DNA of 35,776 bases. It comes from Phycisphaeraceae bacterium. Lineage in GTDB: Bacteria > Planctomycetota > Phycisphaerae > Phycisphaerales > Zrk34. Position numbers and translations under genes: made by a program. Each line of letters opens with the position of its first letter. Position 1 is the stretch's first letter. The stretch spans positions 1 to 35,776 of the forward strand of contig JANQHK010000047.1 of assembly GCA_028282685.1 (NCBI GenBank), given 5' to 3'. Below are positions 7,779 to 28,176 of this stretch, piece after piece. The notes under the pieces were generated by a model. It made no database searches, was not told where the DNA came from, and was given only the letters and a program-made list of their open reading frames with translations.

Positions 7779-8147
7779 ATGGCACGCATCCTGGTAGTTG
7801 ATGATGATCCCGATGTGGTCGAGGCCTGCAAGCTGGTGCTCGAAGCGCAGGATCACGAAGTGATGGAAGCCGGCGGCAAGGCCGACGGCCATCAACTCGC
7901 AACGGAACACAACCCGGACCTGATCGTACTGGACGTGATGATGGCCGAGCCGGACGACGGCATCGCGCTCGCCCAGCAACTGCGCCGCGAGGGCAAGAAC
8001 ATGCCGATCCTGATGCTCACCAGCGTCAGCAAGGTGACCGGCATGGACATCGGCCAGGACGATTCGGTGGTTCCGGTCCAGGCCTTCATCGAGAAGCCGG
8101 TCGAACCGGCCGACCTGGTCGCCCAGGTTGAACAACTGCTTACGTGA
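7779..8147 (+). CDS. Receiver-only response regulator
   Basis: 122 residues, a single receiver domain. The acidic triad is Asp8-Asp10, the phosphorylation site Asp52 (IVLDVMM), the conserved Thr81 (LMLTS) and Lys106 (FIEKP). There is no output domain, so it probably passes phosphate to, or acts on, another protein. Candidate kinases are the CRP-like/GAF kinase at 11935 in the same operon or the hydrogenase-like kinase at 21102. A strong AAAGGAGG site lies 4 bases from the ATG. It is the first gene after the Rex-controlled promoter and leader hairpin, 13 bases before hydC. It resembles the receiver at 20695-21102 in its insertion around the DVMMAEPDDG segment. Confidence 0.9.
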   Translation: MARILVVDDDPDVVEACKLVLEAQDHEVMEAGGKADGHQLATEHNPDLIVLDVMMAEPDDGIALAQQLRREGKNMPILMLTSVSKVTGMDIGQDDSVVPVQAFIEKPVEPADLVAQVEQLLT

Positions 8148-8160
8148 CAAGGAGTCGACG

Positions 8161-8679: not shown

Positions 8680-8680
8680 C

Positions 8681-9865: not shown

Positions 9866-9896
9866 TGCCCGATCCGATTGATACAGGAGTTTGACC

Positions 9897-11822: not shown

Positions 11823-11851
11823 TGCACGCACCGCGATGATCGACAACCAAC

Positions 11852-11879
11852 AAACCGGGTCGTGTGGGCGGCCCGGTTT
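11852..11879 (+). terminator. Hairpin after hydA
   Basis: AAACCGGG (11852-11859) pairs with CCCGGTTT (11872-11879) around a 12-base loop, then TGTTTA. The T-run is weak, so it may be a partial terminator. A TATAAT box at 11884-11889 directly follows, with no clear -35. The kinase gene downstream may therefore be transcribed both by readthrough and on its own. Confidence 0.6.
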
Positions 11880-11934
11880 TGTTTATAATGGTCTCAAGGA
11901 GCACTGCGAATCATAAACGGGAACGGGGTGGCCG

Positions 11935-13668
11935 ATGGCCGTGTTGCCCAAACTTGAGCCGAGCTGGCTGAAGGAGATCGACTGCTTCGCCAATCTCGGT
12001 GGCAACGCGCTCGATCTGCTCGAACAGCAAATGCGTCCGGTCCGTTTCGAGGCGGACCAGACCATCTGCCGCAAGGGCGATCCGGCCGATTGGATGTTCG
12101 TCGTCGGCAGCGGTGAAGTGGCGGTGATCAAGCAGGCCGAAGACGAGCAACCGATCCTCGTGGCCGTGCTGCGAAGCGGTGAGTTTGGCGGGATGATGAG
12201 TCTGTTCGAGCGCCAGCCGCGCTCCGCCACGTTGCGGGCGCGCGGCAATGTGCTCTTGTGGGTGCTGGATCATCCGGCCTTCCAGCGCCTGATGGAAACC
12301 TGCTCCGATGTCTCGCGGGAGATGCTGGCCTTCATGAGTCGACGGATGCGCGAAGATACCCATCACCTGGCCCAGTCGCTGCAGTACGTCACGCTCAGCG
12401 GCCTGGAGGAGTTCTACCAGGCGTGCGACCCGCAGGAGCGCGTGATCCTTGATGAGGTGAACCATCGCGTGGCCGCGGCGCAGTCGCTGGGGGAAATCAT
12501 CGACTACCTGTTCGACGCCACCGGGCGCATCAGCCCGACCAACCGCGTGGCGCTGGCATTCGTGGAGGACGACGGCGGGCGCGTCGTCGCCCATTACGCA
12601 CGCGCCGATTACGAACCGCTGCGCCTCAAGCCCGGCTACGCGGAAGACTTGGCCGGTAGTTCCCTGCGCCACGTCATCGAATCCGGCACCCCGCGCGTCA
12701 TCAACGATCTTCAGAAATACCTGGACGAACACCCCCACAGCAACAGCACCAAGCTCGTCGTCGCCGAAGGACTTCGCTCCAGCATGACCTGTCCGTTGGC
12801 GGTGGAAGGGCGTCAGGTCGGTCTGCTGTTCCGCTCCTCACGCCAGCCCAACGCCTACAACGATCATCAGGTCAAACTCTGGCAGGCCGTGGCCGAGCGC
12901 ATCAGCCAGGCCGTCGAAAAGGCCTTTCGCATCGAGCAGCTCGATCAGGCCAACCGGGCCTACATGGAAATGCTCGGCTTCGTCAGTCACGAATTGAAAA
13001 ACCCCGTCGCTTCGATGATGACCGACGCGAAGCTCATCACGCAGGGCTACCTCGGCGCCGTGGACGACAAGCAGAAAGCCAAGCTCATGCGCCTGATCGG
13101 CAAGGGCGAGTACCTGCTGAACCTGGTGCGCGAGTACATGGACCTGGCGCGCATCGAGGGCGGGACGATGGCCGCAACGTTCGCAGACGAAGTGAACTTC
13201 CGCGATGAGGTGATCGATAAATCCATCGACCTGCTCGAACCGCAGCGCGCCGAAAAGAATACCGACATCGCGATCGAAGCCCCGGACGACCTGCCGCCCG
13301 TGCAATGCGATGTGGACCTGATGACCATCGTCATGACCAACCTGATCGGCAACGCCATCAAGTACGGCAACGAAGACGGGCAAGTCAAGATCACACTGAG
13401 CCACGAAGACGACAAGCTGAAAGTTTCGGTATGGAACACCGGCCCGGGATTCAGCAGTGAACAGCGCTCGCGGTTGTTTCGGCGGTTCAGTCGCATCGAC
13501 GACCCCGAACTGAAAAAGCGCAAGGGCACGGGCGTCGGGTTGTATTCCACCTGGCGCATCATCCAGTTGCACCACGGCCGCATCGACGCCCGCAGTGAAA
13601 AGGGCGCGTGGGCCGAGTTCTTCTTTGAAATTCCTCAACCCATTCCCGCGGAACCATCCGCCACGTAA
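11935..13668 (+). CDS. Histidine kinase with cyclic-nucleotide-binding and GAF domains
   Basis: 577 residues. A CRP/FNR-like cNMP-binding fold comes first (about 20-120; GDPADWMFVVGSGEVAV, SGEFGGMMSLFERQPRSATLRA). A helix links it to a GAF domain (about 185-330; RSSMTCPLAV, GLLFRSS). HisKA has His352 in FVSHELKNPVAS, and HATPase_c (about 450-570) has the N-box NLIGNAIKYGN, WNTGPGFS and GTGVGLYSTWRI. There is no membrane segment, helix-turn-helix or receiver. It is a cytoplasmic sensor kinase, perhaps for the receiver at 7779. What binds its CRP-like and GAF pockets is unknown; with hydrogenase neighbours, redox or nucleotide state is plausible. It lies between hydA and the TM1266-like gene. 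Confidence 0.88.
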   Translation: MAVLPKLEPSWLKEIDCFANLGGNALDLLEQQMRPVRFEADQTICRKGDPADWMFVVGSGEVAVIKQAEDEQPILVAVLRSGEFGGMMSLFERQPRSATLRARGNVLLWVLDHPAFQRLMETCSDVSREMLAFMSRRMREDTHHLAQSLQYVTLSGLEEFYQACDPQERVILDEVNHRVAAAQSLGEIIDYLFDATGRISPTNRVALAFVEDDGGRVVAHYARADYEPLRLKPGYAEDLAGSSLRHVIESGTPRVINDLQKYLDEHPHSNSTKLVVAEGLRSSMTCPLAVEGRQVGLLFRSSRQPNAYNDHQVKLWQAVAERISQAVEKAFRIEQLDQANRAYMEMLGFVSHELKNPVASMMTDAKLITQGYLGAVDDKQKAKLMRLIGKGEYLLNLVREYMDLARIEGGTMAATFADEVNFRDEVIDKSIDLLEPQRAEKNTDIAIEAPDDLPPVQCDVDLMTIVMTNLIGNAIKYGNEDGQVKITLSHEDDKLKVSVWNTGPGFSSEQRSRLFRRFSRIDDPELKKRKGTGVGLYSTWRIIQLHHGRIDARSEKGAWAEFFFEIPQPIPAEPSAT

Positions 13669-14090: not shown

Positions 14091-15335
14091 TCAAGGCCCA
14101 GGCCTCAGGTCTTTGTACACTTCCAGCGCCGCGGGAAACGGTTCCAGCGCGCGCTCGAAGATGCCCAGCGTGTATGCGATCGTCAGACCGTAGTTGGCCA
14201 CGGGGACCCCGGCCTGCCGGCAGCGCATCTGGCGCGTGAGCATCTGTCGACGGTTATGCACGCATCCGCCGCAATGCACGACCATCCGGTACGTGGACAA
14301 GTCGTCCGGAAAATCGTGGCCCTGGTAGTGGACAAAATCCAGCTCCCCGCCAACGTACTGCCGCAACCAGCGCGGGATTTTCACGCGACCGATGTCGTCG
14401 CCGATCGGGTGGTGCGTGCAGGCCTCACAGATCAGCACCTTGTCGCCGGGCTGGAGGTTTTCGATCGCCATGGCCCCGCGCACGAACTCGGCCAGGTCCC
14501 CCTTCGCCCGGGCGAACAGCACGCTGAAACCGGTCAACTTGATATCACGCGGCACATCGGCCGACACTTTCAAAAACGCCTGCGAATCGGTCACCACCAA
14601 TGCCGGCGGACGGTTCAGTCGCGCCAGCGCATCGCGCAGTTCACGTTCCTTGACCACCATGCAGTACGCATCGTGATCCAGCAGATCGCGGATCGTCTGC
14701 ACCTGCGGCAGAATCAGCCGCCCTTTCGGCGCTTCCATGTCGATCGGGACAACGAGTACGACCAACTCGCCCGGCGGCGCCAGATCGCCGATGATTGCCG
14801 GGGCCTTGATGAAATCTTCCGGTGCCGCTTTGATCAGCGCTTCGCGCAAATCGAGGATGCCCTTGCCATCCGTCGCCACGGTTTCGATCGCCACCACTTT
14901 TTTTGATTTCAGATCGTCAAGCACAGCCGTCTGCGGTTGCGCCACGTCGGCCTTGTTGAACACCACAATGGCCGGCGTATCCATTTGATGCAAACGATCG
15001 AGAATGCCCTGCTCGAACTCGGTCCATTCGCCGGCTTGCGCCACAATCACGCCGACGTCGGTGCGGTCGAACACGCGACGGGTCTTATCGATCCGCTGTT
15101 CGCCCAGCGCGCCCACATCGTCGATCCCCGCGGTGTCGATGAACAGCACCGGCCCGATCGGCAGCAACTCCATCGGCTTTTCCACCGGATCGGTCGTCGT
15201 CCCCGCCACATCGGAAACGATCGACACCTGCTGCTTCGTCAGCGCATTGAGCAGGGAACTCTTTCCCGCATTGCGCCGGCCGAACAGACCGATGTGAAGC
15301 CGATTGCCTTTGGGAGTCTTTTGCATACGACGCAT
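14091..15335 (-). CDS. hydF: [FeFe]-hydrogenase maturation GTPase HydF
   Basis: 414 residues. HydF is the scaffold on which the 2Fe subcluster is assembled before transfer to HydA. The N-terminal GTPase domain has G1 GRRNAGKSS (19-27), a G2-like AGTTTDP, G3 DTAG (67-70) and G4 NKAD (127-130). The C-terminal cluster site has Cys306-Thr-His308 and His354-Cys355-x2-Cys358, matching the family pattern CxH...HCxxC. An alternative ATG lies 9 bases downstream of the chosen start. It is the last gene of the minus-strand cluster, separated from aspA by an inverted CACAGAG repeat. Confidence 0.93.
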   Translation of the reverse strand: MRRMQKTPKGNRLHIGLFGRRNAGKSSLLNALTKQQVSIVSDVAGTTTDPVEKPMELLPIGPVLFIDTAGIDDVGALGEQRIDKTRRVFDRTDVGVIVAQAGEWTEFEQGILDRLHQMDTPAIVVFNKADVAQPQTAVLDDLKSKKVVAIETVATDGKGILDLREALIKAAPEDFIKAPAIIGDLAPPGELVVLVVPIDMEAPKGRLILPQVQTIRDLLDHDAYCMVVKERELRDALARLNRPPALVVTDSQAFLKVSADVPRDIKLTGFSVLFARAKGDLAEFVRGAMAIENLQPGDKVLICEACTHHPIGDDIGRVKIPRWLRQYVGGELDFVHYQGHDFPDDLSTYRMVVHCGGCVHNRRQMLTRQMRCRQAGVPVANYGLTIAYTLGIFERALEPFPAALEVYKDLRPGP

Positions 15336-15343: not shown

Positions 15344-15405
15344 AACCACAGGGGCACAGAGGCGCAGAGTTGATTTTTCTTTTTCCGTCTCTGCGACTCT
15401 GCGGT
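15344..15405. repeat. Inverted CACAGAGG-type repeat between aspA and hydF
   Basis: The left arm begins AACCACAGGGGCACAGAGG and runs to 15369. The right arm, at 15387-15405, reads on the other strand AACCGCAGAGTCGCAGAGAC. They flank a T-rich centre and can form a hairpin. It belongs to a widespread class of ACCACAGAGGCACAGAG repeats. The right end touches the aspA stop codon. Confidence 0.65.
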
Positions 15406-16910
15406 TATTGACTGCCCAATCTTGTCACCGCATCCGGACTGATCATCTGATCGAACGTTTTTTCGTCCATCAGTTTCATTTCCAGCACGATTTCACGGAT
15501 GGTCTTTCCCTGCTTTTGTGCGGCGAGAGCGACCTCGGTCGCCTTCTCGTAACCGATCGCGTCGACCAGCGCGGTCACTGTGGCCGTGGCCCCGGCGACA
15601 TATGCCGCGCATCGTTGCTCATCGGCTTCGATTCCCTCCACGCAATGCCGGGCGAACAGATCGCAGGCGTTGATCATCAGATCGATCTCGCCTAACAAAC
15701 AGTCGGCGACGAGCGGGTAGAGATGATTCAACTCCAGGTTGCCGCCGCTGCACGCGTGGAAGATTGTCTGGTCGTATCCGCTGACCATCAGCGCCGCCTG
15801 CGCCACGGCTTCGGGAATCACGGGATTGATCTTGCCGGGCATGATCGACGAGCCGGCCTGGCGCTGCGGCAGCTTGATCTCGCCAAATCCCGCATCGGGC
15901 CCGCTGGAAAGCAGCCGCAGATCGTTGGCGATCTTCAGCAGGTTGCTGGCCAGTGCGCGAACGATGCCCGACACCTCCACCAGCGCATCGGTATTCTGCG
16001 TGGCTTCGAGCATGTTCTCGGCTCGAGCCAGGCCCAGGCCCGTGATATCGCGGAGGTGTTCGATGGCCTTGAAAATGAACTGGCGCGGCGCACCCAGTCC
16101 GGTGCCGATCGCCGTACCACCGAGGTTAACCACGCGCAACCGCTCCTCGCACTTGTACAGGCGCCAGCGATCGCGCGCCAGCGCCTCGGCGTACGCGCCC
16201 ATCTGTCGGCCGAGCGTGGTGAGCACCGCATCCTGCAATTGCGTCCGTCCCACGCGCACCACGTGGGCCAGTTCCTTCTCTTTGGCACTGAAGGCATCGT
16301 GCAGTTTGATGACGGTTTGTTCGAGCGCATGCAGTTGCACAATCGCCGCCACGCGCAACGCCGTCGGATAGGTGTCGTTGGTGGACTGGTGCAGGTTGAT
16401 GTCATCGAGCGGATGGACACAAGCCCCCTCTTCCTTCAAGGGAGAGGGCTGAGGTGAGGGAGGGTTTTCACCGCCTTGCGCACCCCTGGAATCATCCCCC
16501 TCACCCAACCTCTCCCCCACTTGGGGAAGAGGGGAGTAACTGCCCAAGGGCCGCCCCAGTATCCGCAGCGCGCGGTTGGCGATCACCTCGTTGACGTTCA
16601 TGTTCGTGGATGTACCCGCTCCACCCTGCAAGGCATCGATCGCGATGTGATCGTCCAGCATTCCCTCGGCCAACTCACCGCACGCCTGCGCGATTGCTGC
16701 GAATGTCGGCTCGTCCCATCGCCCCAGCTCGTGATTGGTTCGGGCGCAGGCCAGTTTGACCTGCCCGTAGGCGTGGATCAGTTCCCGACGAACCGGCCGC
16801 CGGGCCAGCGGAAAGTTTTCCATCGCGCGCGCGGTGTGGATGCCGTACAGGGTATCAGCCGGCACCTGCATTTCACCCAGCAGATCGTGCTCGATTCGGT
16901 AGTCAGGCAT
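15405..16910 (-). CDS. aspA: Aspartate ammonia-lyase carrying an in-frame repeat insert
   Basis: 501 residues; converts aspartate to fumarate and ammonium. Family marks: DTLYGIHTARAMENF near the start, GGAGTSTNMNVNEVIANRA (97-115), HQSTNDTYPTA (174-184) and the flexible-loop signature GSSIMPGKINPV, with catalytic serine. Usual length is about 465; the excess of about 38 residues is one block (about 126-165) beginning PLPQVGERLGEG and containing PSPQPSPLKEEG. It lies between RPLGSY and HPLDDIN. The insert is encoded by a palindromic repeat (16424-16535). Class II fumarase is an alternative, but the N-terminal pattern favours AspA. It sits between hydG and hydF, so it may supply ammonium for the azadithiolate ligand. 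Confidence 0.88.
   Translation of the reverse strand: MPDYRIEHDLLGEMQVPADTLYGIHTARAMENFPLARRPVRRELIHAYGQVKLACARTNHELGRWDEPTFAAIAQACGELAEGMLDDHIAIDALQGGAGTSTNMNVNEVIANRALRILGRPLGSYSPLPQVGERLGEGDDSRGAQGGENPPSPQPSPLKEEGACVHPLDDINLHQSTNDTYPTALRVAAIVQLHALEQTVIKLHDAFSAKEKELAHVVRVGRTQLQDAVLTTLGRQMGAYAEALARDRWRLYKCEERLRVVNLGGTAIGTGLGAPRQFIFKAIEHLRDITGLGLARAENMLEATQNTDALVEVSGIVRALASNLLKIANDLRLLSSGPDAGFGEIKLPQRQAGSSIMPGKINPVIPEAVAQAALMVSGYDQTIFHACSGGNLELNHLYPLVADCLLGEIDLMINACDLFARHCVEGIEADEQRCAAYVAGATATVTALVDAIGYEKATEVALAAQKQGKTIREIVLEMKLMDEKTFDQMISPDAVTRLGSQ
16424..16535 (-). repeat. Palindromic repeat inserted in frame in aspA
   Basis: About 112 bp. Each end is itself a hairpin (CCCTCTTCC/GGGAGAGGG type at one end, CCTCTCCCCC/GGGGAAGAGG type at the other), with CCCTCACC-like inner arms that pair across the element. 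On the coding strand it shares GGTTGGGTGAGGGGGATGAT and GGTGCGCAAG with the copy in the methyltransferase gene at 29982-30093. It adds an open reading block and leaves the AspA frame intact. Confidence 0.9.
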
Positions 16911-16911: not shown

Positions 16912-17014
16912 AGTTACCAGTTCACGGTTAACAGTTACCAGTTTGTACCTGTCCAACGACATCCCATCAACTGGAAACGGGTAACCGGCAACTGGTAACT
17001 GGCAACCGTTAAAA
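16912..17014. repeat. Inverted GTTAACAGTTACC repeats between hydG and aspA
   Basis: The left half carries CAGTTACCAGTT twice around GGTTAACAG (16912-16946). The right half carries AACTGGTAACTGG and GGGTAACCGG (16970-17014). They are in opposite orientation and can form a long imperfect hairpin that fills this gene gap. The units resemble the 8-bp GGTTAACT family. Confidence 0.6.
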
Positions 17015-18451
17015 GTACAAGTCCCGCTCATCGGTGGTCCGGATCTGTTCCATCCGGCGGATCAGTTCTTCCTTGCGCTTGTTGTCGGGCATCTCGGCGA
17101 GCATTTTCCGGATGAGTTTTTCCCCGGCGGCGCGCGTGGCCGGCGATGCGTAATCGACCAGGTATTCCTGGAAAGTGCTCAGCGCATTGGGCGTGCACAA
17201 CCGCTCGATGAAGCCGGGGATGGCAAACTCCATGAACTCTTCGCCGGTTCGGCCGAGTCGGTAGCAGGCCGTGCAGAAGCTGGGAATGTATCCTTCGACG
17301 GCCAGTTGCTGGATCACCTCGTCGAGCGAGCGAATATCGCCCAGCTCGAACTGCTCTTTTTCGCTGTACTGCTGTTGGGCATCGCCGACCTCGGTGTATC
17401 CGCCGAGTTCGATGCGTGAGCCGGCGTCGATCTGCGAGACGCCGAATCCCATGATCTCGTTGCGCAGTTCGGCCGGCTCGCGCGCGGTGAGGATCATGCC
17501 GGTGTAGGGCACGCTCAGCCGCAGAATCGCCACGAGGCGTTTGAAGTCGTAATCGCTGACCATCCACTGCTCGTCGAGCTGCACGTTTGAGGCCGGTCGC
17601 AGGCGCGGGAAGCTGATGGTATGCGGCCCGCAGTTGAAGCGATCCATCAGGTAGCGTGCGTGCGTGACCAGCCCGAGCACCTCGAACCGCCAGTCGTACA
17701 GGCCGAACAGCGCGCCGATGCCGACGTCGTCGAGCCCGACCTCCCAGGCGCGGCTGAGCCCGTCGAGCCGCCAGAGGTAATCGCCCTTGCGGGTCCCAGC
17801 GGGATGCACGCTGGCGTACGTCTCGTGGTGGTACGTTTCGTGGAAGACCTGATACGTGCCGATGCCCGCTTCCTTGACGATCTTGTAGCCGTCCTGGTCG
17901 AGCGGAGCGGCGTTGATGTTCACGCGGCGAATCTCGCCCTTGCCCTTGCGCGTTTCGTAGACCATGCGCACGGTTTCGGCGATGAACTCGGCGCCGTACA
18001 TCGGGTGTTCACCGAACACCAGAATCAGCCGCTTGTGCCCCTTGTCTTCCAGAGCGTGAATCTGCTGCTGTACTTCGCCGGCATCAAGCGTACGCCGCAC
18101 GGCGTCTTTATTCGACCGACGAAAACCGCAGTACGAACAATCGTTGACACAATGGTTGCCGATGTACAGCGGCGCGAAGAGGACGATGCGATTGCCGTAG
18201 ACATCGCGTTTCAGTTGTCGGGCCGTGGCGAAGATTTCCTCGACCAGTTCCGGATCGTCGCAGTTGATCAGCACCGCGGATTCCTCGACGGTCAGCGGCT
18301 CCTTGGCGACGGACTTGGCCATCACCTCGCGCGCTTCGACGGGATCGGCGGGATCGGCGGGCTTGCCGATCAACCCCTGGATTTTGTCATCGTCGATGAA
18401 GTCGACGCAGTTTTTTGAGAGAGCGGATTTCATGTTGGGCAGGGTGCTCAT
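17009..18451 (-). CDS. hydG: [FeFe]-hydrogenase maturation radical SAM tyrosine lyase HydG
   Basis: 480 residues. HydG cleaves tyrosine with S-adenosylmethionine and makes the CO and cyanide ligands of the H-cluster as an iron synthon. The radical SAM cluster is Cys101-x3-Cys105-x2-Cys108 (CVNDCSYCGF). The second, auxiliary cluster site is Cys393-x2-Cys396 (CTACYRLGRTG) with Cys419, 22 residues later; this separates HydG from ThiH. The hydE stop overlaps the hydG start by 4 bases (ATGA), so they are coupled. The repeat-filled gap to aspA follows. Confidence 0.95.
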   Translation of the reverse strand: MSTLPNMKSALSKNCVDFIDDDKIQGLIGKPADPADPVEAREVMAKSVAKEPLTVEESAVLINCDDPELVEEIFATARQLKRDVYGNRIVLFAPLYIGNHCVNDCSYCGFRRSNKDAVRRTLDAGEVQQQIHALEDKGHKRLILVFGEHPMYGAEFIAETVRMVYETRKGKGEIRRVNINAAPLDQDGYKIVKEAGIGTYQVFHETYHHETYASVHPAGTRKGDYLWRLDGLSRAWEVGLDDVGIGALFGLYDWRFEVLGLVTHARYLMDRFNCGPHTISFPRLRPASNVQLDEQWMVSDYDFKRLVAILRLSVPYTGMILTAREPAELRNEIMGFGVSQIDAGSRIELGGYTEVGDAQQQYSEKEQFELGDIRSLDEVIQQLAVEGYIPSFCTACYRLGRTGEEFMEFAIPGFIERLCTPNALSTFQEYLVDYASPATRAAGEKLIRKMLAEMPDNKRKEELIRRMEQIRTTDERDLYF

Positions 18452-19545
18452 GAGTCACCTCCAATCGATTCGATGGCCGAATCGGCATCGCGGCGTTGCT
18501 GTGCGTTCGGCGAGTCGCCGCGCCCCTTGCCGACGGAACGGCCGATCATCGCCACACGCCCCGTGACGCAGAGCAGGCATTGGCCGGCCGAATCCTTGAT
18601 GCAGGCCTTGTCGGGATAGATTTCGTACGCGCCGCGGTGTTCGGTGGGCGAGAGGTTGGGCATGATGATGTTGGCGCCGCGCTGCAGGCCGAGCTCCCGG
18701 CCGGATTTCGTGTTCAGCGTCGCCAGCGCCGTGGTCGCGGGAATGTTCGTATCCGGACAGAGCAGACGCGTCAGCGCCAGCACCTTGTAGGTCATCAGTT
18801 CGGTCGCCGGGACCTGCAAATCTTCCGAGGCCATGTAGTGTTCCAGGTACTTGCCGAGCGGCGTGTCGGGGTGGGGGATATACGGCCCGACGCCGATCAT
18901 GTCCAGATCAAGCTCGGCGAAGGCGAGCAGATCGTCGGCCAGGTCGCTCCACGTCTGCCCCGGGATACCGATCATCACACCCGAGCCGACCTCAAAACCC
19001 AACCGACGCAACGTGCGCAGAATCTCCATCCGATCGCGCTTGGGCTGCCCGGGCGCGGGGGGATGAATCCGATCAAACAGTTTCGCGTTGGACGTTTCAA
19101 ATCGCAGCAGGTATCGATCGGCCCCGGCATCGCGCATGTGTTGCAGCGCATCATCCTCCCACTCGCCCACGCTGAGTGTGACGGCCATGTCCGTTTCACT
19201 CTTGATTCGGCGCACCAGGGCGCAGAGCCAGTCGAGATCGATTCCCGGATCTTCACCGGATTGCAGGACGACGGTGCCGTAGTTGAACGCGACGGCCTGG
19301 CCGACGCAGTCCATGATTTCGTCTTCGGTGAGCCGGTAGCGGGAGAGCTTGGCGTTGCCGGTGCGTAATCCGCAGTAGAGGCAGTTGCGCTGACAGATAT
19401 TGGAAAATTCGATCAGCCCGCGCAGATGCACTGCATCGCCGACGTGCTCGCGGCGCGTCTGGTCAGCCAAGGCCCACAATTCGTCCAAGCGCCGGGGGCG
19501 CTGCTCGGTGAGCCAGTCAAGGATTTGTTGCTTCGGCAAGGTCAT
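18448..19545 (-). CDS. hydE: [FeFe]-hydrogenase maturation radical SAM enzyme HydE
   Basis: 365 residues. The radical SAM motif is Cys51-x3-Cys55-x2-Cys58 (CQRNCLYCGLRTGN). Typical HydE segments follow: VLQSGEDPG, LRFETSNAKLFDRIHP, GSGVMIGIPGQTWSDLADDL, MIGVGPYIPHPDTPLG and NIIMPNLSPTEHR. HydE acts on the HydG product to build the diiron dithiolate precursor. The start at 19545 overlaps the preceding receiver-kinase gene by 29 bases, and no strong ribosome site is visible, so coupling is likely. The C-terminal 25 residues are polar and not conserved. Confidence 0.95.
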   Translation of the reverse strand: MTLPKQQILDWLTEQRPRRLDELWALADQTRREHVGDAVHLRGLIEFSNICQRNCLYCGLRTGNAKLSRYRLTEDEIMDCVGQAVAFNYGTVVLQSGEDPGIDLDWLCALVRRIKSETDMAVTLSVGEWEDDALQHMRDAGADRYLLRFETSNAKLFDRIHPPAPGQPKRDRMEILRTLRRLGFEVGSGVMIGIPGQTWSDLADDLLAFAELDLDMIGVGPYIPHPDTPLGKYLEHYMASEDLQVPATELMTYKVLALTRLLCPDTNIPATTALATLNTKSGRELGLQRGANIIMPNLSPTEHRGAYEIYPDKACIKDSAGQCLLCVTGRVAMIGRSVGKGRGDSPNAQQRRDADSAIESIGGDS

Positions 19546-20689
19546 CGGTGTTCTCGGCGGTCTGCTCGGAACGGCGCTGAAGCGTAACGGTGAAGGTGCT
19601 GCCGACCTCGGGCTCGCTTTCGACGCTCGCCGCCCCGTGGTACATCTCGGCGATGCGTTTGACGATCGACAACCCCAGGCCGCTGCCCAGAATGTTACGC
19701 GTCTTGGCGTTCTTGATTCTTACAAACTCCCGGAACAGTTTAGCCGCCTCATCCGGGCTCATCCCGATTCCGGTATCGGCAACTTGAATCGTGATTGAGT
19801 CCGAATCGCAGGACAATTCGATATCCACCCGCCCGCCATCGCGGTTGTACTTCACTGCATTGGAGACAAGGTTGTTCAGGATGATTTCCATCTCGGTGCG
19901 ATCGGCGTTGATCGCGGTCGGTCCGTCGGCGTGCAGAGCCACGGTGATCCGGCGTTCCTGTGCAGCCGGTTCGAGCGTCTCCATGGCCATCCGCGCCACC
20001 TCGGCCAAGTCGACCTCCACCAGTTCGCGCCGGCGCTGACCCGATTCGATGCGCGTCATGTCCAGCAGGTCGACGATCAGCTTGCGCATGTGATCGATGC
20101 GGATCAGCGAGCGGTCGATCATCTGTTTCGCGGTGGCCGGATCGGGCGCGGCGGCGGGATCGTTGAGAATCTGCAGGTATCCGGTGACGGCGTTGAGCGG
20201 ACTTTTCAACTCGTGACCGAGCACGCGGATAAACTCGAACCGCACCCGGCGTCTTTCCTCTTCCAACCGGCGCGCGTGGCGGACCAGCAGCAGGTGCGCC
20301 GCGGCCTTGCGCACCGCATCCTTCAACTCCGCGGGGGTGAACGGTTTGGGCAGGTAATCGAACGTGCCCATCTTGGTCGCATGCACGGCCGAATCGATCG
20401 TCGCGTACGCGGTGATCATCACCGTGAGCATGTCGGGCGTATCCTGCTCCAGCGCCTTGAGCAGTTCCATGCCGCTCATGCCCGGCAACTTCTGATCAAG
20501 TAACAACAGGTCCGGCGCCCGGTCACGGATTTTCCACAACGCCTGCTCGGCGGTTTGGGCCTGGTCGACTTCAAAGCAGACCGGCTCGCCGTGATCGGGC
20601 ACTTCGATGCGATGATCGCGCAGCGTGCGCGCCACACCGACACGCATGCCCATTTCGTCATCGCAGACCAGTACCCGAAGCGTCGTCAT
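19517..20689 (-). CDS. Receiver-histidine kinase hybrid (REC-HisKA-HATPase)
   Basis: 390 residues. An N-terminal receiver (about 4-125) has Asp10/Asp11, phospho-acceptor Asp65 (LLLLDQKLPGMSG), Thr93 (MITAYAT) and Lys115 (YLPKPFTPAEL), NtrC-like. A coiled linker leads to HisKA with His159 (LGHELKSPLNAVTGYL). HATPase_c has NNLVSNAVKYN, ADTGIGMS and GSGLGLSIVKRI. The order, receiver before kinase, suggests a relay protein whose kinase is tuned by phosphorylation. The ATG at 20689, 5 bases after the receiver gene stop and behind GAAGGA, was chosen; the frame is open further upstream but only inside that gene. It lies between the sensor kinase/receiver pair and the maturase genes. Confidence 0.88.
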   Translation of the reverse strand: MTTLRVLVCDDEMGMRVGVARTLRDHRIEVPDHGEPVCFEVDQAQTAEQALWKIRDRAPDLLLLDQKLPGMSGMELLKALEQDTPDMLTVMITAYATIDSAVHATKMGTFDYLPKPFTPAELKDAVRKAAAHLLLVRHARRLEEERRRVRFEFIRVLGHELKSPLNAVTGYLQILNDPAAAPDPATAKQMIDRSLIRIDHMRKLIVDLLDMTRIESGQRRRELVEVDLAEVARMAMETLEPAAQERRITVALHADGPTAINADRTEMEIILNNLVSNAVKYNRDGGRVDIELSCDSDSITIQVADTGIGMSPDEAAKLFREFVRIKNAKTRNILGSGLGLSIVKRIAEMYHGAASVESEPEVGSTFTVTLQRRSEQTAENTDDLAEATNP

Positions 20690-20694
20690 CGTTG

Positions 20695-21102
20695 TTAATC
20701 CTTCAGCAGCTTGCCCAGCGTGCCGGTGAGTTGCTCGGAGCGAACCGGCTTGGTCAGCCAGGCGTCGGCCTTCACCCACGAGCGCTCTTCGCGCGTGGAG
20801 GCGTCGAACTCGTGGCCCGTTTCGCTGGTCACGGCGGTCACCAGAATCACCGGCATGTCCGGACGATGCTTCTTCAGGTGATAACAGAGGGTGAATCCCG
20901 CATCGTGCTCTTCCATCATCAGGTCGACCACGGCGGCGTCGAACTCCTGACGTTGGGCCAGCTCCTGACCCTGCGCCGCGGATTCGGCGGTCGTCACCGT
21001 GTGGCCGGCGGATTCGAGCATCACCTTCTGCTGCAGCAGAAAATCCGGATCGTCATCGACGAGCAGGACGTGGCCGGTTTTGTGGGCAGTTTCAGCGGTC
21101 AC
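20695..21102 (-). CDS. Receiver-only response regulator
   Basis: 135 residues. Receiver with Asp16-Asp18, acceptor Asp60 (AAVVDLMMEE), Thr89 (ILVTAVTS) and Lys118 (WLTKPV). A short loop insertion lies around DASTREERSWVKAD. No output domain. The sensor kinase upstream ends at the same base where this gene begins (21102), a one-base overlap that implies coupling; the pair are presumably cognate. It is similar in layout to the receiver at 7779-8147. Confidence 0.88.
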   Translation of the reverse strand: MTAETAHKTGHVLLVDDDPDFLLQQKVMLESAGHTVTTAESAAQGQELAQRQEFDAAVVDLMMEEHDAGFTLCYHLKKHRPDMPVILVTAVTSETGHEFDASTREERSWVKADAWLTKPVRSEQLTGTLGKLLKD

Positions 21103-23111
21103 TAGACATCTCCTTCAATACGCGGCAGGGTGACAGCGAACGTGGCGCCGGTCGGTCCGACGCCGGGGTTGGTGTTGGTGGTCACGGCGATGTCGCCCCG
21201 GTGCATCTTCACGATGCCGTAGGTGACCGCCAGGCCCAGTCCCGTACCCTTGCCGATCTGCTTGGTGGTAAAAAACGGATCGAAAATCTTTCCCAGGATA
21301 TCCGACGGGATACCCGGGCCGGTATCCGACACCTCGATGCGAACAGCGGCGCCATCATCGCCGGTGCGCACGGTCAGGGTGCCGCCGGCTTCGGTCATCG
21401 CGGCGAACGCGTTGGTGAACAGGTTGGTCAGCACCTGGATGATCTGGTCGCGATCGATCTCGGCGATGGGATCGTCCAGATCGTGCCGAACCGAGACACA
21501 GACGTTATCCGGATGGCTGAGCATGCGCAAGGCGTGATCGACGGTTTCGCGCACGTCGGTCGGCTGGCGCACGACCTTGTTCTGCCGGGCGAAATCGAGC
21601 AGGCCGCCGACGATCTTCCGGCAGCGTCCGGCCTGGTCGACGACCATGCGCAGGTCCTCGCGCAGCTTTTCGTCCAACGATTCATCTTCGAGCAACAAAT
21701 GCGTGTACATCAGCACCACCGACAGCGGATTGTTCACCTCGTGGGCGATACCCGCGGCAAGTTGGCCCATGCTTGCCAATTTTTCGGACTGAATCAACTG
21801 CTCCCGTGTCTCGGCCAGTTCGCGGTTGGTGCTGGTCAACTCGGTCATCGTCGCCTTGATGCGCTCGATGGTGTTGGGCAGGCACATGTCGGTTTCGGCC
21901 AAGCCCTTGTGAATGGCGATGGCGTGTTCGAGGCAGGTATCGTACCCGCAGGCGCCGCAATTCAATTCATCCTCGGCGCGCTGTTTGCCCATGTCCTGGA
22001 GAATCCGCGTGATCTGCTCGCGGGAAGGCATCGCCAGACGCTGATCGTTGGCGACGAAACGCCGGTTCAAATCGAGGTCGGCCATGTCCGTCATCGCGGC
22101 GCGCCAGCGGTCGGCGTCGAGCGCCTCGGCCTGCTGACGGGCGTATTGGCTGACGCGGTTGCGCCGTGCGAAGTAACCGTCCTCGTTGGTCACGCCCGCG
22201 CCCATGATGCAGCCGTTGCAGCAGAGCACCTCGAGCAGACGGGAATCCAGATCCCCGTTTTCAAACGCCCTGATGGCCTGCGGGAAACTGGAGCGGCCCT
22301 CGGCGGTCACCACGTGGCCGGTCAGCAGGTCCTCCGCGACACCGGCCGTCTGCAACATGCCGCCGTTGATCGCGAACACGCGCCCCAAGCCGCCGTGCGG
22401 CGGATCGAAAGCCGAGGCCTGCACCGTCGACGGATCGACGCCCTCTTTCAGCAACATCACGCGCAGCTCGGCGAAGGTGATCGCGACGTCCACATCGTCG
22501 TTGAGCGAATTGCTGGCGGCTTCGGCCTTCTTGGCGATGCACGGTCCGATGAACACGATGCGCAGCCCATCGCCGTGCAGACGCTTCAGCGCCCGGGCCG
22601 TCGCCACCATCGGGCTGACCACCGGCGCCAGTTGATCGACCATTTCCGGATGGTACCGTTCGACGAAGCGGATGATGGCCGGGCAGGTGGTGGCGATGTA
22701 GCGCCGATCGGCCGAACCGTCGAGCAGCTTACGATAACGCCCGGCGACGAGATCGGCTCCGAAGGCCACTTCGTTGACGTAATCGAAACCCAACGTGCGG
22801 ATCATGCCGACCAGCGTGGCATGATCCATGCCGGCAAATTCCGCCGGGAAGCTGGGCGCGATGACCGCCGCCACGGGCGTCTGCCCGCCCAGAAGCATGC
22901 GCACCTGGTTGATATTCGTTAAAACCCGCTTGGCGTTCTGCGAGCAGACGCGCACGCAGTTCCCACAGCCGATGCACCGCTCATCGAGCACGTGCGCCTG
23001 ACCTTCCGCCACGCGAATCGCCTTCGCCGGGCACTCGCGAATGCACGTATAGCACACCCGGCAACGCTCGGAGATGGTCTTGACCAGCGGCATGTTCGGT
23101 GAAGGGGTCAT
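21102..23111 (-). CDS. Hydrogenase-like sensor histidine kinase
   Basis: 669 residues. Two 4Fe-4S ferredoxin motifs come first (Cys17/20/23/27; Cys46/49/52/56). A domain like the HydA C-terminal part follows (about 75-325): P1-like TTCPA (Cys143), P2-like GPCIAKKAE (Cys191) and P3-like [10 protein letters not shown] (Cys297, Cys301). So all four ligands of the H-cluster cubane are kept. Next is a CGxCGxxxC Fe-S domain (Cys385, 388, 393, 410), a coiled helix, HisKA (His457 in [11 protein letters not shown]) and HATPase_c ([25 protein letters not shown]). It is soluble, with no receiver. It probably senses H2 or redox state. The start at 23111 has AAAGGA 5 bases upstream; an open stretch before it is repeat sequence. 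Confidence 0.9.
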
Positions 23112-23240: not shown

Positions 23241-24962
23241 TCAACCGATTATCTCGCGCTTCTGGTAATGGGTGTGCAGCAGATCGTGGGATTTGTCGCC
23301 GAGCGGCTCGCCGAGGAACTCCTCGTAAAGACGCTGGACGGCACGGTTGCCGTGGCTGGTGCGCACGGTGTCTTCGCGGTCGATCTTGTAAAGCGCCCGC
23401 ATGCGCGCCTTGACGGCCTCGGGATTGGTGCGGAGCGGTTGACCGCCGCCGTTGATGCACCCGCCCGGGCAGGTCATCACTTCGATGAAGTGCAAATCAT
23501 CGCGTCCGTTGCGCACTTCTTCCAGAAGCTGCTTGGCGTTGGCCAGACCGCTGGCCACCGCAACGCCGACCTGCTGGCCGTTGATATCGAGCTTGGCCTG
23601 CTTTACGCCGTCCAGACCGCGCACCGCGGTGACTTTCAGGTCGGCCAGTTCTTCACCGGTGATCATCCAGTAGGCCGTGCGGACGGCCGCTTCCATCACG
23701 CCGCCGGTCGCCCCGAACAGCTTGCCCGCACTGGAGCGCTGGCCGAAGGGGTTGTCGGCGGTGTCGGGAGCCATGGCGGTGATGTCGACGCCGTACATCC
23801 GCAGCAGCCGCGCCAGCTCGCGCGTGGTCAGCACCGCATCCACATCCGGCAGACCGTCCTTGGCCATCTCCGGCCGCATCGCCTCAAACTTCTTCGCCGT
23901 GCACGGCATGATCGACACGCTGTACACGTTGGCCGGATCGATTCCCTCGCGCTCGGCGTAGAACCGCTTGATCACCGCGCCCAGCATCTGCTGCGGGCTC
24001 TTGCAGGTGGACAGGTTCTCCATGAAGTCCGGGTACATCTGCTCGACAAACTTGATCCAGCCGGGAGAACAACTGGTCATCATCGGCAGCTTGCCGCCGG
24101 TCGTGATGCGGTGCACCAGTTCGCTGGCTTCCTCCATAATGGTCAGGTCGGCACTGAAGGACGTGTCGAACACGCGGTCGAATCCGAGCGTGCGCATCGC
24201 GGCCGTCATCAGGCCCGCCACGTCCTTGCCCGGCTTGACGCCGAACTCCTCGGCCAGCGTCACCGAAATGCTCGGGGCGTGCTGGACGATGACGCATTTT
24301 TCCGGATCGTTCAGCGCATCGACCACTTCCTTGAGGTGGCTCTGCTCGCGCAACGAGCCGGTGGGGCAGACGGCCACGCACTGGCCGCAGTTCACGCAAT
24401 TGGAGGTGTTCAGGCCGGTGTTGAAGGCCGGGCCGATCTCCGTCGCCGCGCCGCGGCCGATGAAGTCGATCGCCGCCACGCCCTCCACTTCCTCGCAGAC
24501 GCGCACGCAGCGGCCGCAGAGAATGCACTTGTCCGGATCGCGCACGATCGAAGCGCTGGAGACGTCCAGATGCGCACGCCGGCTTTCGCCCACGTACCGC
24601 CGCTGACGCACGCCAAGTCCTTCGGCCAGGTCCTGCAGCTCGCAATTCTTGTTGCGCACGCAGTAGAGGCAGTCGTCCGGATGGCTGGACAGCAGCAGCT
24701 CCACCACCGTCTTGCGGGCACGGATGACGCGCGGGCTGTGCGTCTTCACCTTCATCCCCTCGCTCACCGGGCAGGCGCAACTGGGCGCCAACGTCCGCGC
24801 GCCTTCCACTTCCACCACGCACATCCGACACGCCCCGCTGGGCGCCAGGTCCTTGAGATGGCAGAGCGTCGGCACGTTGATGCCCTGCTCGCTCAGCACG
24901 TCGAGCAGCATGCGGCCTTCCTCGGCCTCGATCGTCCGGTTGTTCACTTCGATGGTCGCCAC
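23241..24962 (-). CDS. hydA: [FeFe]-hydrogenase catalytic subunit HydA (second copy)
   Basis: 573 residues, without the N-terminal extension of the first copy. 2Fe-2S: Cys34, 45, 48, 62. His94 with Cys98, 101, 107. 4Fe-4S pairs: Cys146/149/152/156 and Cys189/192/195/199. H-cluster motifs: P1 TSCSPGW (296-302), P2 MPCTAKKFE (352-360), P3 EVMTCPGGC followed by INGGGQP (494-509). As in the first copy, the fourth P1 residue is Ser (299) where most enzymes have the proton-relay Cys. With the HydC and HydB upstream it forms a complete trimer, probably electron-bifurcating (ferredoxin plus NADH to H2, or the reverse). Confidence 0.95.
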   Translation of the reverse strand: MATIEVNNRTIEAEEGRMLLDVLSEQGINVPTLCHLKDLAPSGACRMCVVEVEGARTLAPSCACPVSEGMKVKTHSPRVIRARKTVVELLLSSHPDDCLYCVRNKNCELQDLAEGLGVRQRRYVGESRRAHLDVSSASIVRDPDKCILCGRCVRVCEEVEGVAAIDFIGRGAATEIGPAFNTGLNTSNCVNCGQCVAVCPTGSLREQSHLKEVVDALNDPEKCVIVQHAPSISVTLAEEFGVKPGKDVAGLMTAAMRTLGFDRVFDTSFSADLTIMEEASELVHRITTGGKLPMMTSCSPGWIKFVEQMYPDFMENLSTCKSPQQMLGAVIKRFYAEREGIDPANVYSVSIMPCTAKKFEAMRPEMAKDGLPDVDAVLTTRELARLLRMYGVDITAMAPDTADNPFGQRSSAGKLFGATGGVMEAAVRTAYWMITGEELADLKVTAVRGLDGVKQAKLDINGQQVGVAVASGLANAKQLLEEVRNGRDDLHFIEVMTCPGGCINGGGQPLRTNPEAVKARMRALYKIDREDTVRTSHGNRAVQRLYEEFLGEPLGDKSHDLLHTHYQKREIIG

Positions 24963-25056: not shown

Positions 25057-27051
25057 CTAATCCACCGCGATCGCTTCGAATCGGCAGACGTTCAGGCACG
25101 TTCCGCAGCCGACGCACTTGTCCATATCGATGGTGTGCGGCGACTTGGGCGCGCCGAGGATCGCACCGCCGGGGCACGTCTTGGCGCACAGCGTGCAGCC
25201 CTTGCACAGTTCCTGATCGACGGTGTAGGTCAGCAGTTCCGGGCAGACGTGCGCCGGACAACGGCGCTCGTAAATGTGCGCCTCGTATTCATCGCGGAAC
25301 CAGCGCAGCGTGCTGAGCACGGGGTTCGGGGCGGTCTGGCCCAATCCGCAGAGGGACGTGTCCTTGATCACGTCGGCCAGGCGCTCGAGGTACATCACGC
25401 CCTTGAAGCGTTCCAGCGCCCCGTCGCCGTCTTCTTTCTTGCGGCCGCGCGTGATCCGCTCGAGGATTTCCAGCATCCGCCGCGTGCCCTCCCGGCAGGG
25501 AATGCACTTGCCGCAGCTTTCGCGCTGGATGAAGTCCATGAAGAACTTGGCCACATCCACCATGCACGTGGCTTCGTCCATCACGACCAGGCCGCCCGAG
25601 CCCATCATCGCGCCCACGGTCTTGAGCGATTCGTAATCGATCTCGATGTCCAGGTGTTGCGCGGGGATGCAGCCGCCGCTCGGCCCGCCGATCTGCACCG
25701 CCTTGTACGCCTTGGCGTCGGGAATGCCGCCGCCGATCGCGAACACGACTTCACGCAGCGGTGTGCCCATCGCCACTTCCACCAGCCCCGTGCGCACCAC
25801 CTTGCCCGACAGGGCGAAGACTTTCGTGCCCTTGCTGGTTTGGGTGCCCACGCCGCTGAACCATTCCGAGCCGTTGGCCACGATGCCCGGAATGTTGGCC
25901 ATCGTTTCGACGTTGTTGATGATGGTGGGCTTGTCGAACAGTCCCTTGATGGCGGGGAACGGCGGACGCGGACGCGGCATGCCGCGCCGGCCCTCGACGC
26001 TGTGGATCAACGCGGTTTCCTCGCCGCAGACAAATGCGCCCGCCCCCTGCTTGATCATGACCTTCAGTTCCACGCCGCTGCCAAGGATGTCCACCCCCAG
26101 CAGGCCCGCCGCCTCGGCCTGGGCAATCGCATCCTCCAGACGCCGGATCGCCAGCGGATACTCCGCACGGATGTACACATAACATTTGCTGGCGCCGATC
26201 GCGTAAGCGGAGATCGCCAGACCTTCGACCAGACGATGCGGATCGCCTTCAATCACCGCACGATCCATGAACGCGCCGGGATCGCCTTCGTCGGCGTTGC
26301 AGATCAGATACTTCTGGTCGGCCTCGGTGTTCAGCGCGAACTTCCACTTCTTGCCCGTCGGGAAGCCGCCGCCGCCGCGACCGCGCAGGCCGCTGGACTC
26401 GACCATGTCGCACACCTCTTCGCGCGTCATCTGCGTCAGCGCCTTGGCCAACGCCGCATACCCGCCGTGCGCCATGTATTCGTCGATGCGCGTCGGGTCC
26501 ATCACGCCGCAGTTCGCCAGAACCCAGCGCGTCTGCGGTGCGAAGAACGGATGCTCATCCAGGTACGGCACGTCCGCCCACGCCTCGGCGATTTCGCTGC
26601 GGAACTGACCCAGCGTCATCTCCGACGGAACCGTCCCGGCCTGAAGCACCGCATCCAGCAGGCCGGCCACGCGATCTTCGGTCACCTGCTTGAACGAAAC
26701 GCGGGGCCGATCGGGCAGTTGCACGTCCAGGATCGGTTCCACGGCACACAGGCCGATGCAGCCGACTTCCACGATCTGCGCATCGATGTTCCGTTGTTCC
26801 AGATAATCGCGGACGGCTTGAAGCGTCTTGCCCGCCCCGGCGCCCAGGCCGCATGTGCCCGTGCCGAGGTAGATCGTCGGCTGCTCAACGACCTCGCGCC
26901 GCAGTTTCGCCAGCAACTGTTGGTGCCGCTGCTGCGCTTCGCCTTCGCGCTCGACGGTCATCGCGTCAACCAGGTCGGCCACGGCCGCCGGATCCTGTCG
27001 CCACGTCTTCTGCCAATCCGTATTTCCGTTGTTGGGTTTGGACTCAGCCAT
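25057..27051 (-). CDS. hydB: [FeFe]-hydrogenase subunit HydB, long form
   Basis: 664 residues. An N-terminal helix-rich part leads to a 2Fe-2S thioredoxin-like domain (about 58-125; GTGTCGLGAGAG with Cys67, VGCIGLCAVEP with Cys98 and Cys102). The NuoF core has GLRGRGGGGFPTG, CNADEGDPGAF, CGEETALIHSVEG and CGKCIPCREG. The C-terminus has two 4Fe-4S motifs, CKGCTLCAKTCPGG and CVGCGTCLNVCRFEA. It binds FMN and NAD(H). This is the architecture of bifurcating HydB/HndC subunits, in contrast to the short HydB at 8681. The start overlaps the hydC stop by 8 bases. Confidence 0.95.
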   Translation of the reverse strand: MAESKPNNGNTDWQKTWRQDPAAVADLVDAMTVEREGEAQQRHQQLLAKLRREVVEQPTIYLGTGTCGLGAGAGKTLQAVRDYLEQRNIDAQIVEVGCIGLCAVEPILDVQLPDRPRVSFKQVTEDRVAGLLDAVLQAGTVPSEMTLGQFRSEIAEAWADVPYLDEHPFFAPQTRWVLANCGVMDPTRIDEYMAHGGYAALAKALTQMTREEVCDMVESSGLRGRGGGGFPTGKKWKFALNTEADQKYLICNADEGDPGAFMDRAVIEGDPHRLVEGLAISAYAIGASKCYVYIRAEYPLAIRRLEDAIAQAEAAGLLGVDILGSGVELKVMIKQGAGAFVCGEETALIHSVEGRRGMPRPRPPFPAIKGLFDKPTIINNVETMANIPGIVANGSEWFSGVGTQTSKGTKVFALSGKVVRTGLVEVAMGTPLREVVFAIGGGIPDAKAYKAVQIGGPSGGCIPAQHLDIEIDYESLKTVGAMMGSGGLVVMDEATCMVDVAKFFMDFIQRESCGKCIPCREGTRRMLEILERITRGRKKEDGDGALERFKGVMYLERLADVIKDTSLCGLGQTAPNPVLSTLRWFRDEYEAHIYERRCPAHVCPELLTYTVDQELCKGCTLCAKTCPGGAILGAPKSPHTIDMDKCVGCGTCLNVCRFEAIAVD

Positions 27052-27532
27052 CGGTGGTCACCTTCTTCTGGTACTGCTTGATGATTTTCTCGGCCTTGGC
27101 GGGCGAGACCTGTGCGTGAAAATTCTCTTCACAGCAGATCAGCGGGGCCAATCCGCAGGCCCCGATGCACGCCACCACCTCCAGCGAAAACCGTCCATCC
27201 CGCGTGGTCTGTCCGGGCTCGATCTTGAGCAGTCGCTGGATGGTTTCCAGCACACCGGCCGACCCTTTCACGTGGCAGGCCGTGCCCCGGCACACCTGGA
27301 TGTGGCACTGGCCCGGCGCGGAGAACCGGAACTGGTTGTAGAACGTCGCCACGCCGTACACCTTTGACGGCGCCAGGTTCAAATGCTCGCCGATGCGGAT
27401 CACCGCCTGCGGGCTGAGGTAGCCCTGGCGCTTCTGCACCTGCTGCAGTATGGGAATCAGGGCGTCGCGCCCCGCGGTGGGATAATCTTCCAGCACCGCA
27501 TTGACTTCTTGCAGTTTCACATTGCTGACCAT
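27044..27532 (-). CDS. hydC: [FeFe]-hydrogenase subunit HydC (NuoE-like, second copy)
   Basis: 162 residues. NuoE-family 2Fe-2S protein with PILQQVQKRQGYLS and VYGVATFYNQF. The ligand cysteines lie in CRGTAC and CIGAC. Its start codon overlaps the rex stop (TAATG), so translation is coupled to rex, and its end overlaps hydB. It links the flavin subunit to HydA. Confidence 0.92.
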   Translation of the reverse strand: MVSNVKLQEVNAVLEDYPTAGRDALIPILQQVQKRQGYLSPQAVIRIGEHLNLAPSKVYGVATFYNQFRFSAPGQCHIQVCRGTACHVKGSAGVLETIQRLLKIEPGQTTRDGRFSLEVVACIGACGLAPLICCEENFHAQVSPAKAEKIIKQYQKKVTTDG

Positions 27533-28176
27533 TACAGCTTCTCCAGAGATACGGCGTTCTGGCGGGCCATGTATGCGACCCGCTCCATGGATACCGTCAT
27601 GTCGATGTCCTCGACATACACATTCGCCGGCACGGACAACCGCACCGGGGCAAAGTTCAACAATCCGCGAATCCCCGTCTCGATCAGGTGCTCGGCAATC
27701 TCCTGCGCCGCATCAGCCGGCACCGCGATCACGCCGACCGTGACCGCTTCGCGCTGGATCTCGGCTTCCAGCGCATCCATCCCGTAGCAACGGCAGCCGT
27801 GGATCACCCGGCCGGTTTTTTCGGGATTGGCGTCGAACGCGGCGACGATGCGCAGCTTGGTGGACCGCCCGGCAAAGAAGGCCAGCAACGCCCGACCGAG
27901 GTTGCCCACGCCCACCAGGGCCACGTTCTGACCATCCGGGGCATCGAGAAACGCTTCGATGTCTTCCAACAGGCCGCTGACGGAGTAGCCCTTGGCGGGA
28001 TTACCGCTGGCGCCCAACACCATCAGATCGCGCCGGACCTGGGCGGCGGTCACTCGGGCCATGGACGCCAGATCGTGGCTGAACACAAAGCGGGCCCCCT
28101 CTTCAGCCAGCCGGCCAAGAAGTCGGCGGTACTGGCCCAGACGCCCGATCACCTTGTCAGATATGGCTTTATTCAT
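27532..28176 (-). CDS. rex: Redox-sensing transcriptional repressor Rex
   Basis: 214 residues, full length. An N-terminal winged helix (about 1-75) has the strongly conserved RVTAAQVRRDL and the wing G-N-P-A-K-G-Y-S-V. The Rossmann fold has GVGNLGRAL (89-97) for NAD(H), DANPEKTG, and a C-terminal domain-swap helix. Rex leaves DNA when NADH is high, which would switch on hydrogenases to dispose of reductant. Its own promoter carries a matching operator (28230-28247), and a second one lies before the other hydrogenase operon, so it likely controls itself and both clusters. It is first in the minus-strand cluster. Confidence 0.95.
   Translation of the reverse strand: MNKAISDKVIGRLGQYRRLLGRLAEEGARFVFSHDLASMARVTAAQVRRDLMVLGASGNPAKGYSVSGLLEDIEAFLDAPDGQNVALVGVGNLGRALLAFFAGRSTKLRIVAAFDANPEKTGRVIHGCRCYGMDALEAEIQREAVTVGVIAVPADAAQEIAEHLIETGIRGLLNFAPVRLSVPANVYVEDIDMTVSMERVAYMARQNAVSLEKL

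Follow-up and report, generated by a model that had tools for sequence, protein, structure and literature searches.

A sensor histidine kinase with an [FeFe]-hydrogenase-like input half and a contracted P3 motif in a planctomycete hydrogenase operon

Introduction

Can a protein that joins an [FeFe]-hydrogenase-like domain to a complete histidine kinase sense H2 or redox state for the hydrogenase operon in which it is encoded, and does its hydrogenase-like half still carry an H-cluster? This question is raised by a gene in contig JANQHK010000047.1 of a Phycisphaeraceae bacterium (assembly GCA_028282685.1), of which a stretch of 35,776 nucleotides, here called the window, was analysed. The original prediction regarded the product as a strong candidate for a direct H2 or redox sensor. 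The [NiFe] histidine kinase-linked regulatory hydrogenases of group 2b have an unrelated metal site and fold and consist of separate subunits rather than one chain. They likewise use a hydrogenase as the input of a two-component system (HydDB table). For [FeFe]-hydrogenases, a sensory role is still called "putative" in the sections of the cited literature considered here, and an output has not been demonstrated. The consulted part of HydDB lists group C1 as "histidine kinase-linked (putative)" (PMC5037454). A study of Hydrogenedentota, in the sections used here, describes group C1/C3 proteins (BfuT of sub-type V) with kinase domains beside HydABC; its authors hardly found the standard P1, P2 and P3 motifs in C1 and did not commit themselves on H2 sensing (PMC11406978).

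Results

Domains and cluster ligands of the sensor kinase

The sensor-kinase open reading frame is real, running on the minus strand from an ATG at 23111 to a stop at 21102 and encoding 669 residues. Its matches to the Fer4, H-domain, PF04060, HisKA and HATPase_c families were far above the Pfam cut-offs (Table 1), which confirms the predicted combination of an H-domain with a complete kinase. The latter has the phosphoacceptor H457 and the ATP-binding boxes DTGPGI and GTGLGL of a HisKA-type kinase. The ligands of the two N-terminal clusters (C17, C20, C23, C27 and C46, C49, C52, C56) are mostly invariant among the relatives. A CGxCGxxxC domain had also been predicted; it is present, but its full form is Cx2Cx4Cx16C over residues 385-410, with C385, C388, C393 and C410 as ligands. 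No PAS domain between this cluster and the kinase was detected in the Pfam search of the sensor protein.

Table 1 Features of the sensor kinase and its operon in the window
Feature	Position	Strand	Basis or remark
Rex-like NADH/NAD-responsive repressor, head of the cluster	27532..28176	-	PF06971 and PF02629
HydC, NuoE-like [2Fe-2S] subunit	27044..27532	-	
HydB, NuoF-like FMN/NADH subunit	25057..27051	-	
HydA, bifurcating/NADH-linked type	23241..24962	-	NCBIfam A6; P1 TSCSPGW
[FeFe]-hydrogenase-like sensor histidine kinase, whole gene, 669 aa (P0001)	21102..23111	-	
Two ferredoxin-type [4Fe-4S] motifs, residues 14-60	22932..23072	-	Pfam Fer4 families
H-domain (Fe_hyd_lg_C), residues 79-305	22197..22877	-	PF02906, E 1e-45; AlphaFold2 model
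P1 motif ATTCPAI, residues 140-146	22674..22694	-	C143 = C300 ligand; T142 = C299 position
P2 motif GPCIAKKAE, residues 189-197	22521..22547	-	G189 = M353; C191 = C355; K194 = K358; E197 = E361
P3 motif, contracted CxxC, residues 294-307	22191..22232	-	C298 = C499; C301 = C503; L296 = M497
C-terminal [4Fe-4S] motif Cx2Cx4Cx16C, residues 385-410	21882..21959	-	PF04060 and exact motif
Helical linker from last FeS cysteine to kinase, residues 411-447	21771..21881	-	AlphaFold2 helix 411-433
HisKA dimerisation/phosphoacceptor domain, H457 (HEVNNP)	21582..21770	-	Pfam
HATPase_c catalytic domain, residues 553-664, DTGPGI and GTGLGL boxes	21120..21455	-	Pfam
Single-domain response regulator (REC), likely phosphate acceptor	20695..21102	-	PF00072
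REC-HisKA-HATPase hybrid kinase	19517..20779	-	Conserved in the cassette
HydE maturase	18448..19545	-	TIGR03956 over cut-off
HydG maturase	17009..18451	-	TIGR03955 over cut-off
Fumarase/aspartase-type lyase	15405..16910	-	Also between HydG and HydF in L064, L065 and L072
HydF maturase	14091..15335	-	TIGR03918 over cut-off

The H-domain was aligned to CpI, which serves as the numbering reference (C299, C300, M353, C355, K358, E361, M497, C499 and C503). The sequence check found C143, C191, K194, E197 and C301 at the positions claimed in the original prediction, while two of its other assignments had to be revised. The P1 motif is not shortened to TTCPA, since ATTCPAI aligns with CpI TSCCPGW without a gap and T142 replaces C299. 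Neither is C297 the fourth cubane ligand: the invariant residue is C298 (98 of 98 kinase-type relatives), and the C297 position is variable (Cys in 45, Phe in 38, Ala in 12 and Ser in 3 of them). The four cubane cysteines are C143, C191, C298 and C301, the last two spaced CxxC.

As had been proposed as a check, the sensor half was modelled and set against hydrogenase structures, and the hydrogenase fold was borne out. AlphaFold2, run on residues 1-434 with 65 relatives, gave a pLDDT of 95.5 and a pTM of 0.92; VIA-align matched the model to CbA5H with Z 42.7 (344 residues, 2.2 Å) and to CpI with Z about 40 (model residues 4-355). In the model, a 23-residue helix begins directly after the last C-terminal cluster ligand and reaches the model end, towards HisKA. 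This arrangement, without an intervening PAS domain, suggests that a signal may run straight from the C-terminal cluster domain into the kinase coil.

Pocket residues and class membership

The residues scored here are those that we take, from the CpI structure, to line the diiron pocket. Positions C300, C355, K358, E361, S323, P324, C499 and C503 are invariant in the 98 kinase-type CxxC relatives, and S232 and P231 are kept in 95 and 96 of these 98, respectively. By contrast, the sensor differs from CpI at C299, M353 and M497 alike (Thr142, Gly189 and Leu296), and the proton-path positions E279, E282 and R286 are lost in its alignment. Twenty Bacteroidota sensors have Asp at the C299 position, the only C299 substitution with which prototypical enzymes are reported to stay active (PMC10055695). 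C299 is also lost in TmHydS and TamHydS, both of which can take up an H-cluster (PMC8163306, PMC10055695, PMC10407848). M353 is replaced by Gly in TmHydS and M497 by Leu in TamHydS (PMC8163306), although in CpI itself the M497L change makes it harder for the diiron unit to be inserted (PMC10055695).

These features place the protein among the known kinase-linked group C "sensory" [FeFe]-hydrogenases, to which it probably belongs. It has the group C (M2f-like) Cx2Cx4Cx16C motif after the H-domain (residues 385-410; definition in PMC8163306), C299 is not conserved (Thr142), and a signalling domain (HisKA and HATPase) is fused. Since no PAS domain was found, we do not claim it as a strict, PAS-bearing M2f protein. 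Membership of group D (M2e) was rejected, because a kinase output is present and Gly189 stands at M353 instead of Ser/Thr. So was that of a catalytic group A HydA: the motifs TSC[CS]PxW, MPCxxKxxE and CxxxC are absent, and the NCBIfam group A model scored below its cut-off.

The closest characterised systems share parts of this design. TmHydS (Thermotoga maritima, group C, M2f) has the same two N-terminal clusters, H-domain and C-terminal Cx2Cx4Cx16C motif, with C299 and M497 changed and Gly at M353; unlike the window protein, it carries PAS instead of a kinase, and PAS-only relatives (these, rather than TmHydS itself, were compared) keep CxxxC. TamHydS (Thermoanaerobacter mathranii, group D, M2e) resembles the window protein in cluster layout and in Leu at M497, and is likewise a proposed H2 sensor whose gene lies near a bifurcating hydrogenase, but has no fused output. 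Group D-like relatives, compared in place of TamHydS itself, have CxxxC and Ser/Thr at M353, against CxxC and Gly in the window protein. Sigma54 activators and PAS-kinases of Firmicutes (L143, L145, L146, L155 and L163) share the CxxC H-domain and the C-terminal FeS motif, but differ in a sigma54 AAA+ output or a PAS-like stretch before the kinase. The HydDB C1 and Hydrogenedentota proteins, as far as the consulted sections describe them, also combine an H-domain with a kinase, by linkage or fusion, beside a group A3 HydABC (PMC5037454, PMC11406978); Hydrogenedentota are represented in our comparison set by L071, L078 and L135.

A contracted P3 motif in the kinase branch

The P3 motif of the sensor is CxxC, one residue short of the CxxxC found in HydA, group D and PAS-type sensors; it thus lacks the spacing that is typical of, though not demanded by, the PF02906 profile. 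The contraction is common to the 98 kinase-type relatives, which come from many phyla. With output classes (kinase, sigma54, PAS-only, chemotaxis) assigned by simple sequence patterns, 91 of the 92 clear kinase fusions had CxxC, as did 16 of the 21 sigma54-type proteins, whereas CxxxC was present in all PAS-only (17/17) and chemotaxis-type (5/5) proteins and in all ten without an output domain. An origin of CxxC already within group D was considered and rejected, as all seven group D-type relatives have CxxxC. Among the characterised H-cluster types represented in the comparison set, CxxC has no precedent. Parsimony on a tree of 190 H-domains required a total of five P3-spacing changes and put CxxxC at the root; a single origin of the contraction is likely on this tree, whose support is uneven.

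Several relatives depart from the common pattern. The sole clear kinase fusion with CxxxC (LSCKGGC), from a WOR-3 MAG (L082), is possibly a reversion. In L141 the same sensor module is fused to a GGDEF-like domain, and in L137-L139 this module, with CxxxC, is fused to sigma54-type outputs. Five Bacteroidota loci (L081, L095, L097, L100 and L129) encode a second sensor-like protein, divergent from the same operon, at about 2.2-2.8 kb on the minus strand of the locus; these paralogues have a degenerate P3 (such as HFNIFYDEGC) in which the Cys of the C499 position is missing.

The operon and its conservation

The sensor gene is the fifth in a co-oriented minus-strand row that extends from the Rex-like gene to HydF (Table 1). 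Profile matches to HydA and to HydE, HydG and HydF support the earlier claim that it shares an operon with both hydrogenase and maturases. The genome (2.9 Mb, 98.5% complete) encodes three H-domain proteins, all within the window: HydA, a second HydA at 9891-11822 and the sensor kinase. The second HydA belongs to a plus-strand hydrogenase cluster (7779-13668) that comprises a REC protein, a NuoF-like protein, HydA2 and a cNMP-binding/GAF histidine kinase. Both HydA proteins of the window (23241-24962 and 9891-11822) have the P1 motif TSCSPGW, in which Ser takes the place of the C300 ligand; structure entry 7q4v, of A. woodii HydA1, shows the same.

The closest named relatives of the sensor include Planctomycetota and Phycisphaerae. 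The cassette NuoE-HydB-HydA-sensor-REC-REC/kinase is conserved: HydA is the next gene upstream of the sensor in 49 of the 59 loci with room for it, and the next gene downstream encodes a REC or REC-kinase protein in 61 of 66. We saw no DNA-binding response regulator among the cassette genes. Among 392 genomes of the phylum, HydG was found in 17 of the 20 that have the sensor and in 51 of the 372 that lack it (Fisher p 1.4e-11, uncorrected for genome relatedness), and the three sensor genomes without HydG are 76-90% complete. The conserved cassette, the kinase with its REC partners and this co-occurrence uphold the proposed signalling role tied to the hydrogenase operon. HydA upstream, REC downstream and the link to HydG indicate that the kinase very probably serves the NADH-linked hydrogenase, beside a Rex-like repressor that would read NADH.

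Across the wider set, HydF passed its cut-off in only 26 of the 50 genomes that have the sensor; the 24 without a full HydF match were re-examined, and HydG was found in 3 of them. We did not take these absences as proof against an H-cluster throughout the branch, because most sensor genomes without HydF/HydG are MAGs and several have a canonical HydA yet no maturases. Such a canonical group A HydA without HydE, HydF or HydG over cut-off occurs in Ignavibacteria MAGs (L110, L119, L120 and L128) and in L105 and L107, and may come from contigs that are missing or from a true lack of maturases.

A sensor lineage without maturases

Some genomes in which HydE, HydF, HydG and HydA were not found still encode a sensor that retains the four ligands, Lys and Glu; one of these is a complete Dehalococcoidales chromosome (CP070842.1). 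In this chromosome, the sensor is the only H-domain protein; neither HydE, HydF nor HydG was over its cut-off there, and HydA was likewise not found. The neighbours of this sensor encode NuoE/HydB-like diaphorase subunits. It keeps all four Cys ligands together with K358 and E361, but its pocket has drifted (A230S, P231S, Q325T and M497Y). Since the maturases are absent and these four positions have changed, we read this as a loss of the diiron unit in the Dehalococcoidales lineage. Judged from this comparison, the P2 lysine and glutamate are not diagnostic of a diiron site, as both are kept in a chromosome without HydE/F/G or HydA, and we rejected them as proof of a diiron unit. Next to the NuoE, HydB and sensor-kinase genes, L122 (CP070842.1, 15989-17011) and L124 (15997-17019) encode a protein with no H-domain, in which a response-regulator-like N-terminus is fused to a stretch resembling the N-terminal FeS region of HydA.

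Discussion

Taken together, the gene most probably encodes a redox or H2 sensor kinase for the hydrogenase operon (probability about 0.9). It would be a soluble histidine kinase whose input half descended from an [FeFe]-hydrogenase catalytic domain, and it would control the co-encoded NADH-linked HydABC hydrogenase together with its maturases. In the mechanism that we propose, HydE, HydF and HydG of the same operon would install an H-cluster in the H-domain, which would be reduced by H2, or by the electron pressure that H2, ferredoxin and NADH set, with electrons exchanged via the two N-terminal clusters. The C-terminal [4Fe-4S] domain, in which the last ligand, C410, stands immediately before the predicted signalling helix, would relay the changed state to H457 of the kinase, and from there phosphate would be transferred to REC domains. 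H2 does not reduce the C-terminal cluster of the group D protein TamHydS (PMC13104023), which counts against a simple redox relay through that cluster.

Whether the sensor carries a complete H-cluster appears to us evenly balanced. The original suggestion that it may bind one stays plausible, as most diiron-contacting side chains are retained; the argument originally offered, from Cys, Lys and Glu, is weak, because the Dehalococcoidales protein keeps all of them without maturases and the contracted P3 had been missed. In favour of a full cluster, the changes at C299, M353 and M497 each have a precedent in TmHydS or TamHydS and may thus be tolerated. Against it, the CxxC spacing would put both cubane-anchoring, diiron-bridging P3 cysteines one residue closer, and the Leu at M497 could act as in the hindered CpI variant, though TamHydS tolerates it. 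If the kinase does no more than regulate the hydrogenase, it would co-occur with maturases all the same. The protein may instead be a redox sensor with [4Fe-4S] clusters only, in which the contracted P3 holds the cubane, no diiron unit is bound and the redox state of ferredoxin/NADH is read. Eukaryotic Nar1/NARF have the same fold and [4Fe-4S] clusters with no diiron site, and so count for this possibility. CxxC being common to the whole kinase clade, and the retention of the sensor in a Dehalococcoidales chromosome without HydE/F/G or HydA, where unchanged K358 and E361 need no diiron partner, point the same way. However, most diiron-facing residues are near-invariant where maturases are present, the drift of the Dehalococcoidales pocket would be expected if other lineages hold a diiron unit, and HydG is tightly linked to the sensor in the window's phylum; we rate a [4Fe-4S]-only sensor as possible, though somewhat short of probable.

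The constant place of the gene beside HydA/HydB-type subunits in most loci, even where the HydA H-domain is lost, would also fit an H-domain that docks onto HydABC and reports its electron flow by contact, its own active site being irrelevant. This is unlikely, as docking by itself would not explain the invariant pocket residues. Still further from probable, and hardly credible from the sequence, is a hydrogenase still active in catalysis and joined to a kinase only by chance: the full cubane ligand set and the H-domain fold would allow it, but none of the C299, M353 and M497 positions keeps its residue, the E279, E282 and R286 proton-path positions are lost, and the characterised sensory types show low turnover (PMC10055695, PMC8163306). 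Within the preferred reading of a redox or H2 sensor kinase, we put forward tentatively, and with more doubt than belief, that the proteins of the kinase branch are H2-gated kinases whose H-cluster has an altered geometry, a variant without counterpart in the characterised enzymes, and that in at least one maturase-free lineage the protein is now a diiron-free redox sensor.

The fusion of a kinase to an H-domain was already known, and the novelty lies in the clade-wide CxxC variant. Neither the P3 contraction, with its near-restriction to the kinase/sigma54 branch, nor the maturase-free sensor lineage is described in the consulted sections of PMC5037454 and PMC11406978, and others may have reported them. 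With the output in the same chain and no PAS domain, a single soluble protein suffices for direct assays of whether H2 or redox state controls phosphorylation. The CxxC contraction and the maturase-free lineage provide ready controls for what an H-domain needs in order to bind a diiron unit, and the CxxxC kinase fusion of the WOR-3 MAG is a natural comparison for maturation. If a diiron unit is bound, the environment of the H-cluster in these kinases would be new; if none is, the proteins now classed as "H2 sensors" would be a large family that responds to something else.
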